From positions 18,080,984 through 18,144,983 of the forward strand of contig BTRK01000005.1 of the NCBI GenBank assembly GCA_036245805.1: 64,000 nucleotides of DNA. The letters run 5' to 3'. Source of the DNA: Pristionchus mayeri. Taxonomy: Eukaryota; Nematoda; Chromadorea; Rhabditida; Neodiplogasteridae. The number at the start of each line of letters is the position of its first letter. The stretch's first letter is position 1. The notes below the pieces were generated by a model. That model had not been told where the DNA came from and ran no database searches. It saw only the letters and a list, made by a program, of their open reading frames with translations. Positions 20,573 through 26,691 of this stretch are shown one piece after another. The translations under genes and the position numbers were made by a program.

Positions 20573-22845
20573 AAAGGTGTAGCCTTTTCCATGCAAACTC
20601 CATCTGTGTAGCAACGGGCCTCTCCTGGAAACGAATGGCCTGTTTCGAGAATGTTGTGTGCACGTGGTCGACATCGTCATCGATGGTTTGCAATTTAGTT
20701 TACAGTGTAAAGCCATGCTATCGTCTTATCAATATTCATACAATGCAAACATAAAATAAAACGCAAAACTTTCAACGACGAAGCATAAAACATGAAATTG
20801 TCAACTTATTTCCGATAATTTTCCCATATGCATAGATTACTCCTCCCCGATTTTATACGCAAATAATGAGCTCTCGAGATTATTGCTTGGAAGGTGGAAC
20901 TGGATAGTCGCCGTAAAGGATGAGCTTCCTCAGAATGTCGACATAATTGATCTGCTTTCTCATGTACACCTGAAGCATAGAATGAACGAAGTAAAAGATC
21001 AAAGATCACCTTGGTTTCCCATATCATGTTTATCAGAGTGGCATTATTCGATTCGTCCAGAGCCACTTCTTTCTTGAATATTGGAGTGAAACGGAAGAAA
21101 GCTCCCTTCTGAAACAATAGGCTCGAAGACAAAGAAGAAGCAAACAATTATGCGAGGCAAAAAAAGGCAAAAAAGAGAGGCGAAGCGACGGAGGACTTAC
21201 TTGTGCCTCAGTTCTGGATTTCGAACCGTCTACGTCTTCGTCCGTTCGTGCGAGCTGGTAAATTTAAGATCGCATTAAGCAAAGAGTATATTTAAAAAAA
21301 AAGCCCGAAAAATTTTAAAAAGAGGTTTAGATACTCCATCAATTCGGACATCTTCTTGTATGGAGAAGGAGCAATCGATTCCTTAAATTCATAAAAAGTT
21401 CTCTTTGTACAATATTTGAGCAAAATACAATGATAACATTAGTAATAGATTGAAATCGATAAAGTTCGATCACCGTTTTCCCACATCCGAGTGATATCAC
21501 AGCGCCCAATTTCATCTTCTTCTCACTCTGAAATGCAAAACTGTTTATCAAAACCTTGCTTAGCATCTTCTAAAGATTTAAAAATCAATATTATCGAATA
21601 TTATTTTTTAAAAGTAATTGAAAATCTGAATCTCCCCTTTTCGTACTCTCCAAAATTTCGATGCAGTTTGTCTACCGCTCCATTGTATACCGTCCATTCG
21701 TGTAATAGCTCCCGAGTTGGATTATTATTGCTGAACATTCCTCCGTCGAGATAGGATGTTCCCTTTGGAGAGGCGAAGAAAGAAGGAGCAGCACTGCAAT
21801 GCTTAGCTGCATTCATTACAATCTAGATGCGCAAAAATACTTCTACTGTTTTCCTAAAATAATTCTTTCATGTTATTCATAGAGAATAAATTGATTTTAA
21901 AAAGTCCTATCCTTTTTCTTTTGAACAAACCTTGAGCATCGAGCAGCAAAGTGGACCTCTGTCTTCGTAGGATCTGGTTCAAGCACCGATTCTTCGAATT
22001 TCCCCCCAACAGGAATACACACATTCAACAGCCTCCTGAAGAAATAGAAATTCGTCAAATTTCAGCGAATCAGAAAAGGTAATATACGTAGTTTTAGAAA
22101 AATAGATAGAGCGAGTGAGAACGTACTTTACTTTTACTTGTTCCTCTTCTTCTTTCATGCACGAGTACTCTGGTAGGAGCGAAGTATATGCAAGTTTTAC
22201 TTTTTTTTCACTTGTCGAAACTGGAAGAAATCCCACCTCGCTTCGACCGCGTGGATGTGTAGAACCTCTCGTCGATCTGAAAACAATATTTGTGGATTGT
22301 TGTAATTTGCGGCAGCGGAATACCTTGTAGCTCCTGAAGAGTGCAGTTTCGAATTTCTTACAGGAAGCTTCAATAGCAAACGTGATTATCTTCTTGTTGC
22401 TTCTCAACCTGAATATTTCTAACTATTGAAGAGGAAATTCAAATATGATGAAGAAACAACAATATTTTTGCCAATTTAATATACAACTATCGTCCCGAAT
22501 TAAAATTCCGCTACGAATGACTCGATGTTTGCGATTGTAACAAACTTTTTGTTACAAAATTTGGAAACACTCAAAACACACTTTCATGGGTCATGTTTGT
22601 ATTCATTCGATGCGTAATCATCGCGTCTTTCGCTAAATATCACTCAAAAAATTTAAAAATCAATAGTTTAGCCGGTATTTATTTTTTATAAAATAAAATC
22701 AGTTTGTGACTGTCATGGCAACATTTTGCAGCACTTGGGCCCGGCTTGGCCTACGAGTTTTTCTTAATCGCGAAATTGCCGCGTTTCCCCTCGGCTTTCC
22801 ATGTTTATGTTGTGTAATTTCACTCTTGTGTAATTTAAATTTCAG

Positions 22846-23628
22846 TGGCGGTGGATCCGGTGGACCTGCCAGAGGTAGACTTCGTGATATCGACTGGTCT
22901 CGTGAGAAGTTGAACCCAATCAAAAAGGACCTCTACGAGGAGAACCCCGCAGTCATCGCCAGAGCGCAGGCAAGTGTTTCAATTTTTACATTAATTTTTA
23001 GGCGAATAGGACGAGGCTAAAACCGAAAACCGCCAATATTGTTCATTAAGTTTTTATTGTTCGAGTATTACAAAATTTAAATTACATTTCAGTTCGAAAT
23101 CGACCAGTGGATCACCGCGAACCAAGTCACCCTGGAGGGTCGCGGAATCCCCCGTACCGTTTTCGAATTTAGCGAAGCACCATTCCGGCGAGAAGTGGTT
23201 GATATGCTGTACCACAACTTCCATAAGCCCACCGTCATCCAATCAATTTCTTGGCCGATCGCGATGGCTGAGGGAAGACGCTTGCGGTCAGTTTTAATTG
23301 CGTATTTGTTTCCAATTCGAGTCCTAGCAATAGTTAAGGATATATTGCTTATCAAATCCACGATTTTGAACATTATTATTTTATATCGCCCAGCTTGAGC
23401 ATAAATTAATTGTCGAATTTTCCACCGGTTCTGTGTCTTGAAACTTGGTCGTGCTATCCTTCGGCTACAATGATCATTTGCAGTTCATGCTTCCTGGATT
23501 GATACACACTGTTGCTCAAACCCCTCGGCATCATCGTGACGGTCCTTCAATTCTCGTTCTTCTCCCTACTCGTGAATTGGCCCAGCAAGTACAGGGAATC
23601 AACAAGGATTCGTCTTAGTCAGGTATTC
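22846..23628 (+). pseudogene. DEAD-box helicase fragment (ddx-17/p68-like), left arm
   Basis: Exons read RGRLRDIDWSREKLNPIKKD...ENPAV, FEIDQWITANQVTLEGRGIP...FHKPTVIQSISWPIAMAEGR (Q motif), and FMLPGLIHTVAQTPR...LLPTRELAQQV (motif Ia). This follows p68/DDX17-type helicases closely. The exon with the Walker A motif (AxTGSGKT) between them is missing, and everything after motif Ia is absent. Introns are retained, so the piece was copied as genomic DNA and is not a retrocopy. The fragment cannot be a working helicase. Confidence 0.8.
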
Positions 23629-23686
23629 AATTCAATCACTGAGCCTCTTGTTGATGATTCGTCCAATTCATTGATGGGTTCACTTT

Positions 23687-24161
23687 GAGGCGTTCGTCGC
23701 CTACTTCACCGTCCAGTTCTCCAAGTGCCACAAGTGGACGGGATTCTCTACCGGGCCGGACAGCCAAAACACGCATTGGAAGCAAACCATCTTCTATCTC
23801 CAGGTTTGCACTTTAGCTTATCTTTTTTTCCAGAGATCCTGTTTCAAGTATTTGTTTGTTTGTTTGCTTTAAACATCATATATCACATCAAGAAAATAAT
23901 GGTGTCACGGAAAGCGAACTAGAGAAGAACTATTGCTGATTTAAAAACTGAAAATATTCCATATAAACTAGATTTGACTTCTTTAGTTTATGGATTACGA
24001 GTTTTTCATTTTTTGAGTTTTTCACCATGTGACGAATTTACTAATTTATTTTAGGATGCTCTTACCGTCAAGAAGGGCGAGGAGCTGAAAGGAGTGTTCA
24101 CTTGCGCGCCGAACGCGAGAAATGAGCGCGACTTGGACTTCAAGATTAATCCTTCCACGGT
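23687..24161 (+). pseudogene. prmt-1 C-terminal fragment
   Basis: Two exons, [20 protein letters not shown]...[11 protein letters not shown] and DALTVKKGEELKGVF...NARNERDLDFKIN, match the C-terminal beta-barrel of protein arginine methyltransferase 1 (THW loop, YTHWKQTVFYL-type). The final exon is missing. Bounded on both sides by the 62-base inverted repeat. Confidence 0.8.
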
Positions 24162-25018: not shown

Positions 25019-25076
25019 CTTTACTGTTACACTCAGGAGAGAAAAACGCCGTAGCGAATACCTGACTAAGACGAAT

Positions 25077-26167
25077 CCTTGTTGAATCCCTGTACTTGCT
25101 GGGCCAATTCACGAGTAGGGAGAAGAACGAGAATTGAAGGACCGTCACGATGATGCCGAGGGGTTTGAGCAACAGTGTGTATCAATCCAGGAAGCATGAA
25201 CTGCAAATGATCATTGTAGCCGAAGGATAGCACGACCAAGTTTCAAGACACAGAACCGGTTGAAAATTCGACAATTAATTTATGCTCAAGCTGGGCGATA
25301 TAAAATAATAATGTTCAAAATCGTGGATTTGATAAGCAATATATCCTTAACTATTGCTAGGACTCGAATTGGAAACAAATACGCAATTAAAACTGACCGC
25401 AAGCGTCTTCCCTCAGCCATCGCGATCGGCCAAGAAATTGATTGGATGACGGTGGGCTTATGGAAGTTGTGGTACAGCATATCGACCACTTCTCGCCGGA
25501 ATGGTGCTTCGCTAAATTCGAAAACGGTACGGGGGATTCCGCGACCCTCCAGGGTGACTTGGTTCGCGGTGATCCACTGGTCGATTTCGAACTGAAACGT
25601 AATTTAAATTTTGTAATACTCGAACAATAAAAACTTAATGAACAATATTGGCGGTTTTCGGTTTTAGCCTCGTCCTATTCGCCTAAAAATTAATGTAAAA
25701 TTGAAACACTTGCCTGCGCTCTGGCGGTGACTGCGGGGTTCTCCTCGTAGAGGTCCTTTTTGATTGGGTTCAACTTCTCACGAGACCAGTCGATATCACG
25801 AAGTCTACCTCTGGCAGGTCCACCGGATCCACCGCCACTGAAATTTAAATTACACAAGAGTGACGAAAAACCCGAGACATAAACACTAATTTACAAAATA
25901 ACCCACTATCTATCTGATCCACTGCTTCTCATTTTGCTGACGATGAACTGATGAAAGACCGTTTTCTGGTCGCCTAGATGACGCCTGAACAACGAACTGA
26001 CAGCATTTTGGCATTAATTTAAAAAATTGGAAAGAAGAAAGGCCAAAAATTGATCAAAAACAAAGGAAAATGAAGGGAAAAACTTAACTTACCATTCTCG
26101 AGTGGCCTCCTCTTGAAGAAGGACTTCTTTTACTCCGCATATCATCTATTCGAATTTTAGAAGAACC
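25077..26167 (-). pseudogene. DEAD-box helicase fragment (ddx-17/p68-like), right arm
   Basis: Mirror copy of the left-arm helicase exons with only scattered single-base differences (for example C for T in a VVDM codon). It keeps about 330 more bases at its 5' side, including an exon GSSKIRIDDMRSKRSPSSRG and a short exon ending MRSSGSDR with an in-frame stop. It lacks the same Walker A exon as the left arm, so that loss preceded the inversion-duplication. Confidence 0.75.
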
Positions 26168-26691
26168 CTGAAACACAAAACAAGTAAAAATTGCAACATA
26201 AACATGGAAAGCCGAGGGGAAACGCGGCAATTTCGCGATTAAGAAAAACTCGTAGGCCAAGCCGGGCCCAAGTGCTGCAAAATGTTGCCATGACAGTCAC
26301 AAACTGATTTTATTTTATAAAAAAATAAATACCGGCTAAACTATTGATTTTTAAATTTTTTGAGTGATATTTAGCGAAAGACGCGACGAAAGACGTAGCG
26401 GAATTTTAATTCGGGACGATATGACCTTCTCTGAGATAAAGAGAGAAAAAAAACTAAATAAATTCTCTGGAAAGTGCTTACCCAAGGTCGAACATTGTCG
26501 GCTGCGATTCATTCTCATTTTCATAAGTACTTTTCAGAAAATTTTCGATGATCTGAAATTTCGCTTCTCATTCAACTCGGAAATTGAGCCTTTTTTCACT
26601 CAGATAACTCACATTTGTGTCATATCCCAATTCGCGATCTTTCGAACGCGTGAATACCACATCCTGAACAAGAACGTTGTATTAGGTTGAT

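Follow-up and report, generated by a model that had tools for sequence, protein, structure and literature searches.

A likely recombinant member of a multicopy transposon family with long terminal inverted repeats carries ddx-17 and prmt-1 fragments in Pristionchus mayeri

The Pack-MULEs of plants capture fragments of genomic genes, with a bias towards the 5′ side, and carry them in multiple copies; they are Mutator-like elements with a target site duplication (TSD) of 9 bp. The present study concerns a palindromic, TA-flanked element of 3,930 bp (positions 22490-26419) in a stretch of 64,000 nucleotides of the nematode Pristionchus mayeri (assembly GCA_036245805.1, contig BTRK01000005.1, 18,080,984 to 18,144,983 of the forward strand). 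This stretch is referred to as the window, and its numbering is used throughout. In an earlier note, written from the sequence alone, the element was described as a foldback transposon with pieces of the housekeeping genes ddx-17/p68 and prmt-1, and was set against the plant phenomenon. The latter framing was too strong, because gene capture by transposons with terminal inverted repeats (TIRs) has been surveyed in animals: Tan et al. (2021) report 370 Pack-TIRs in 100 animals, 4 of them multicopy (PMC8277862; this and later statements on the survey refer to the part of the paper available to us). 115 of the 370 are TcMariner elements, the multicopy case given as an example has three copies, and TIRs are described as generally short, i.e. 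less than 100 bp (PMC8277862). A limited literature search revealed no Tc1-type capture of host genes in nematodes, nor any Tc1-type capture of these two genes, and the accessible parts of two further papers (PMC9297572, PMC10015627) contain nothing of this kind. In our view, the window element very probably arose by recombination within a Pack-TIR family of the Tc1/IS630 type (DDE transposase, TA target) that has long TIRs and two genes, and is itself non-autonomous, with the history proposed below.

The window element was confirmed to be a real transposon; each of its arms holds pieces of ddx-17, and its centre holds pieces of prmt-1. TA target sites adjoin it on the left (22488..22489) and on the right (26420..26421; both without strand), and its outermost 26 bases form a perfect inverted-repeat match (TIR tips at 22490..22515, plus strand, and 26394..26419, minus strand). 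The left tip opens a TIR head that is common to all lineages of the family (element positions 1-323; 22490..22812, plus strand). It is followed by the left arm (22820..23628, plus strand), where the 5′ part of ddx-17/p68 is represented by bits of three exons with their introns, in sense orientation towards the centre. According to the alignments to the gene, about 34 gene bases with the Walker A motif (GSGKT) are absent at approximately 23262..23276 (plus strand). Further inward are the left copy of a prmt-1-like inverted repeat of 70 nucleotides (23623..23692, plus strand; 97%) and the two most 3′ exons found in prmt-1 (23665..24316, plus strand), which match PRMT_C (Pfam PF22528) and positions 3116-3706 of the intact prmt-1 locus L050. 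The right copy of the 70-nucleotide repeat (24316..24385, minus strand) is followed, in the opposite orientation, by earlier prmt-1 exons with introns, including the exon stretch with the S-adenosylmethionine (SAM) motif (24460..25015, minus strand). The right arm (25056..25863, minus strand) mirrors the ddx-17 capture of the left arm and is followed by a leader region of the ddx-17 lineage that is found in the right arm only and is deleted on the left (25864..26193, minus strand), and by the right TIR head (26194..26389, minus strand), which is 98.98% identical to the left head and is separated from the tip by a deletion of about 100 bp.

The inverted arms match over 809 bp with 99.26% identity (22820-23628 and 25056-25863) and over a second stretch of 196 bp with 98.98% identity. 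They are thus not identical, and their deletions differ: the right arm lacks the approximately 100 bp behind the tip, and the left arm approximately 330 bp that are kept on the right. Since the right arm lost the sequence inside its tip, and since the TIR head in other copies is 368 bp long and common to the lineages, 26 bases is less than the true TIR length. The 26-base perfect ends that were initially reported therefore hold as TIR tips, but not as the full TIR.

To count the family, the host assembly was searched with a 24-base pattern of TA plus TIR, allowing up to 2 mismatches. The pattern occurred 70 times (37 forward, 33 reverse) and a reversed control pattern 0 times, which excludes chance. 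Pairing of ends within 12 kb gave 25 complete elements of 3,509-8,018 bp and 20 single ends; the 25 elements are spread over six chromosomes and one small contig. The search for further copies that had been proposed was thus strongly positive. We read 21 of the 25 complete elements (the other four are located at C2:17.99, C2:35.80, C3:16.32 and C6:20.99 Mb) and a minority of the single ends. Long inverted arms were present in all 21 elements read. prmt-1 sequence was found in 18 of the 25 pairs, in a search that scored the best 40 of 51 candidates. Counts of 22-mers in the 21 elements read detected ddx-17 in 8 and prmt-1 in 14, and the window copy was the only one with both cargoes. Altogether, all 25 complete elements contain ddx-17 or prmt-1 DNA, ddx-17 having been tested in the 21 read.

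TA adjoins the TIR at every end printed, except for the left end of L042 (TG). The flanks beyond TA differ between the elements read, save for one pair on C49, a contig that duplicates C4:43.02 Mb; an end on C7 likewise duplicates C3:44.76 Mb. No shared direct repeat of 9-10 bp was seen beyond TA in the two flanks printed for elements. The family has the properties of Pack-TIRs in that host-gene DNA lies within TIR-bounded elements and the parental copies were identified, and in that it is multicopy with independent insertion sites (25 pairs, of which the C49 pair duplicates C4). Two further observations concern individual loci. At C2:42.007-42.028 Mb (L026/L027), a mirror duplication shows 99.9% identity of its flanks across 3.9 kb, and each side carries the end of a prmt-1 element; this is either a true inverted duplication or an assembly problem. 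In the centre of the prmt-1 element at L023 (locus positions 1785-3007), a Mos1-like mariner (HTH_48, Transposase_1) with 25-bp ends of its own is nested, and its transposase was rejected as a candidate for the family's own enzyme.

Intact copies of both source genes are present in this genome: ddx-17 is locus L046 (C6:32.79 Mb), and prmt-1 is locus L050 (C4:31.34 Mb), whose exons match PRMT1 with a best E-value of 3e-45. The alignment of the fragments to intact loci, which had been suggested as a check, was made. In the window element, Pfam recognised PRMT_C with an E-value of 7.9e-12 and a second piece of it with 0.0036; matches to DEAD were weak (0.036 and 0.044, under the cut-off), and a captured 58-residue exon matches DDX5/p68 in the PDB with a best E-value of 2.1e-7. 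Together with the ends and arms, these results bear out the view that the element is a TIR transposon with pieces of two host genes, neither of which is complete. The window ddx-17 arm agrees with the intact gene in 650 of 721 aligned bases (90.2%), the exons being closer than the introns, and the prmt-1 stretch at 24460..25015 is 90.6% identical to positions 1683-2242 of L050 and 93% identical to the copy in L023. Introns are retained in the captured DNA of both genes. The Walker A stretch is absent from all 8 ddx-17 elements. The exon with the SAM-binding GSGIG motif is absent from all 12 lineage-B elements, i.e. from 12 of the 14 prmt-1 elements, and is retained in L023 and the window copy. 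In lineage B (L030), prmt-1 is present from near its start codon across most exons. As regards other captured genes, a six-frame Pfam search of the centre of L039 (3.3 kb) revealed nothing, and the centre of L010 yielded only DDE_3. Further ddx-17-like loci, 81-85% identical to the query, were observed at C6:41.40 and 41.41 Mb (L047 and L048, 6 kb apart) and at C6:34.74 Mb (L049).

The absence of a transposase, as stated in the earlier note, applies to the window copy, where Pfam found none, but not to the family: lineage A, which carries ddx-17, and relatives with cognate TIRs do have one. In lineage A, the transposase gene lies between the arms and matches DDE_3 with an E-value of 2e-5, under the family cut-off; the relative L052 matches with 6.2e-9, over the cut-off. 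No Mutator family was among the Pfam matches of the element and transposase sequences examined. The transposase is encoded in six pieces with D, D and E motifs and is whole and free of stops in L010 and L018. In L009, L012/L014 and L015 the fourth piece begins at its fifth residue, which is probably a frameshift. Stops and shortened or missing pieces were found in L011 and L013, and the last pieces are lost in L019 and L020. Six of the 14 prmt-1 elements read were searched, and none had a transposase match. In L010, a 1.3-kb array of tandem and inverted repeats (element positions 2877-4142) separates the first transposase piece from the second; this array is absent from L009, L011 and L015.

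A second gene, seen in L009, L010, L051 and L052 (protein P0001), runs opposite to the transposase gene. Among the best 150 of 725 candidates scored in the transposase search, it was found within 3 kb of 53 of the 56 transposase matches of at least 58% identity, and a transposase was located within 3 kb of 54 of the 63 second-gene matches. The second protein matches an annotated P. mayeri protein (E-value 5.1e-101); it matched no Pfam family over the cut-off, and a BEN-like domain was not among the matches. Possibly, it plays an accessory role in a Tc1-type transposon with two genes.

The link between TIR and transposase was examined on C1 and C2, in a count that excluded transposase matches below 51% identity and ends with 3 mismatches. 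All 11 transposase matches at 62-63, 77 and 100% identity sit within TIR pairs, and in the relatives at 77% and 62-63%, 2 of 22 bases of these ends deviate from the window TIR. As judged by this linkage, which is not a matter of binding, the TIR appears to be cognate to the family transposase. One relative has a TIR of 677 bp with 99% identity, which is 68% identical to the window TIR over the first 111 aligned bases, and the tips are homologous; long TIRs therefore probably predate the captures. Transposase relatives also occur in other Pristionchus assemblies, P. entomophagus and P. pacificus among them. Two side observations concern relatives. At C1:11169380-11175800 (L053/L054), a relative lies at the centre of a palindrome, flanked on either side by mirrored sequence that is identical for 37 bases or more. 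In Pristionchus pacificus, the gene model PRIPAC_75355 (P0011) joins a transposase relative to PF01248, named in the source as ribosomal protein; this may reflect either a fused gene model or a further capture event.

The TIR head and the sequence behind it bear on the family's history. A splice-acceptor-like TTTCAG is located near TIR-head position 350 in other copies, the same short stretch follows it in lineages A, B and C, and a relative has a similar site at a like place. In lineages B and C, the gene sequence starts about 30 bases past TTTCAG at the same prmt-1 position (564/565), which suggests that they represent one prmt-1 capture. In lineage A, ddx-17 starts about 180 bases past TTTCAG, behind a stretch for which we found no source. 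Each capture begins with the 5′ end of its source gene and runs towards the centre, which would fit template switching during gap repair in the TIR, followed by arm copying. In a tree of 480-bp heads, the A clade had a support of 100, B of 99 and the L023 pair of 100; the two arms of an element differed by at most 2% in 16 of 20 elements vs approximately 10-15% between lineages. Apart from WIN_l and L020_r, the arms of A, B and C cluster by lineage, with both arms together; inside the lineages, the signal is weak.

We propose that the ancestor possessed the transposase gene, the second gene and long TIRs holding a splice acceptor. In lineage A, this ancestor would have taken up the 5′ part of ddx-17 behind the TIR splice acceptor, and prmt-1 would have been taken up separately in lineages B and C, from a few codons past its start through most exons. 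Template switching during gap repair inside the TIR is the presumed route, and each capture would then have been copied into the opposite arm. The elements may have spread through cut-and-paste transposition into TA sites, lineage A or relatives supplying the transposase in trans. The window copy, a mosaic in its make-up, would have been formed by recombination that joined an A-type arm to a C-type centre, and it sits in an intron of a patatin/iPLA2-like gene. At the protein level the cargo would be a passenger, and any effects would run via RNA, as inward spliced transcripts or hairpins.

Several observations weigh against this reading. No copy was shown to be both intact and complete, as L010 contains the repeat array and L018 has one known end, and no transposition was observed. 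On C1 and C2, transposase matches at 73% (6), 75% (2) and 51% (1) identity lie outside TIR pairs, each of the two at 75% having one TIR end. TIRs of hundreds of base pairs, such as the 368-bp head and the 677 bp of the relative, are atypical for Tc1/mariner elements. In the tree, the A clade does not include WIN_l and L020_r, whose 480-bp pieces are shifted out of register by deletions. An element's own arms were closest to each other in only 6 of 20 elements, with 2 ties and 12 elements closer to another element; recent homogenisation of arms is therefore not general, and within-element homogenisation is partly supported, at the level of lineages. Lastly, the present ddx-17 and prmt-1 alleles are not simple donors, as the dS is 0.12-0.20. 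Comparison of gene and capture gave a dN/dS of 0.10-0.19 in ddx-17 (6 elements) and of 0.27-0.45 in prmt-1 (14 elements). The ddx-17 value is lower than would be expected if the present gene had been captured and had then simply decayed, although the tests were not significant (P-values of 0.10-0.28). The donor of ddx-17 may thus for some time have been a distinct functional allele, a paralogue or a copy from another species. It is conceivable, but rather doubtful, that the captures came from another species, very old alleles or lost paralogues and arrived with the transposon, which would add to the proposed history. The dS values, the few amino-acid changes in ddx-17 and the lack of a nearer donor among the matches listed speak for such an origin. 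However, numbers are small, the prmt-1 search covered the best 40 of 51 candidates, and a hyperdiverse population would look alike. Divergence of the donor prior to capture was not adopted as a conclusion, being suggestive only in four non-significant Fisher tests.

Exon-like stretches of host gene copy B lie to the left (22322..22414, minus strand; 71% identical to window 13315-13407 in copy A) and to the right of the element (26480..26557, minus strand; 74% identical to 14072-14151 in copy A). In the paralogous copy A, about 9 kb away, the matching stretches are separated by 664 bp (13407-14072) without the element. A weak Patatin match in copy A (E-value 0.0051, under the cut-off) is in line with the iPLA2 label given earlier; Pfam detected no patatin domain in the disrupted copy B. 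The palindrome had also been feared to be a chimera or the product of a fold-back read. Palindromes are indeed known to be troublesome. Haplotig duplication is seen at two end sites (C7/C3 and C49/C4), L024 and L025 share a flank, and the region C2:42.007-42.028 Mb is duplicated in mirror image. Nevertheless, we give practically no credence to an assembly artefact: the arms are not identical and carry unlike deletions, which argues against a fold-back read, the flanks of the window copy are not mirrored, and 25 elements occur in different places, with separate TA flanks in those read except C49/C4. Beside the window element, copies of an element of about 0.9 kb with TTAGGTTGATGCAAAAGTTTCGTTAC ends, which we take to be mariner-like, were observed at 26680-27584, 31131-32033 and 15435-15470 (36 bases).

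What the cargo might do was considered for protein and for RNA. Among family members, nonsynonymous and synonymous changes in prmt-1 number 56:20 (12 elements), or 78:31 with L023 and the window copy, and those in ddx-17 4:1 (5 elements), or 12:6 with the window copy. These ratios are roughly as expected without constraint, which makes a protein role of the cargo unlikely. A new chimeric gene that yields a functional protein from the captured exons is accordingly most improbable, even though a splice-acceptor-like site precedes the exons and the captured codons are free of stops in the window copy, L023 and 5 of the 6 ddx-17 elements counted: the Walker A stretch and, in 12 of 14 cases, the SAM-motif exon are lost, and all 12 B copies contain one or two stops. 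At the RNA level, transcripts of the arms might form hairpins that are diced into small RNAs tuning or silencing ddx-17 and prmt-1, with neutral, useful or selfish outcome. Arms of 99% identity, captures in inward sense behind a splice-acceptor-like site and the position of the element in a gene intron favour this possibility, as do the perfect 22-mers shared between the window copy and the genes (160 for ddx-17 and 167 for prmt-1); jointly, the 21 elements hold 319 of the 3,210 22-mers of the ddx-17 locus and 328 of the 3,980 of the prmt-1 locus. The element had been expected to give long hairpins of both genes. This would hold for ddx-17, which is inverted over a long stretch, but prmt-1 is mostly loop, save for the 70-nucleotide pair, and the long stem of the window copy would come from ddx-17 only. 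Nor are the arms identical to the gene exons, as was claimed; despite the perfect 22-mers, their overall identity is about 90%, and with the unconstrained changes this gives no sign of upkeep. Hairpin-mediated silencing of the source genes is thus possible in principle, but we regard the family as an unlikely RNA effector. In flies, p68/ddx-17 is reported to occur with the RNAi complex of AGO2 (PMC6251927, accessible part), and one could imagine a selfish anti-silencing system, whose inward transcripts would form ddx-17 and prmt-1 hairpins that lower restraining host factors, with both cargoes joined in the window copy; we deem this very unlikely. As a natural experiment, the family could show whether, in a nematode, a palindrome with gene cargo contributes to the silencing of the source gene by small RNAs.

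Comparison with known systems clarifies the place of this family. It shares the multicopy capture of gene fragments with Pack-MULEs, but these are Mutator-like with a 9-bp TSD as opposed to TA. Like Tc1/mariner (IS630) elements, it has a TA target and a transposase of the DDE_3 type in which the D, D and E motifs are present; it differs by TIRs of hundreds of base pairs, a multi-exon transposase gene and a second gene. A short TIR (less than 100 bp), a usual rather than a strict feature of that group, is thus not found here. The family is also an example of a Tc1-type transposon with two genes, the second of which encodes a protein without a Pfam match at a meaningful E-value. Among nematodes, Tm1 of Meloidogyne is likewise a foldback family, in which some classes possess a transposase and others do not, but its transposase is of the Mutator type (Phantom-like) and its TSD is 9 bp (PMC3169594, accessible part). 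The Ssk-FB4 element of Drosophila is similar in being a multicopy foldback with long TIRs and a captured gene; it differs by a TSD of 9-10 bp, an unknown transposase and a nearly whole gene for which a protein is reported (PMC8277862), whereas the P. mayeri family has TA, a DDE transposase and broken cargo. Animal Pack-TIRs are alike in that a TIR transposon carries pieces of host genes with a known parental copy, template switching has been proposed and each copy has its own TSDs (PMC8277862); unlike them, the present family counts 25 complete copies, places its cargo in both arms, draws on two source genes and includes a lineage that has kept a transposase of its own. Indeed, host-gene DNA is carried by all 25 elements of a single TIR family, and in the elements read it is mostly located within the arms, as compared to the 4 multicopy cases in 100 genomes (PMC8277862). 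With the sources, the transposase lineage, the successive cargo lineages and the recombinant all present in one chromosome-scale genome, capture, arm copying and spread become readable. It is well supported that this is an ordinary kind of element, a Pack-TIR, which is unusual in its copy number, its cargo within the arms, the visibility of its transposase and sources, and its recombinant with two cargoes.

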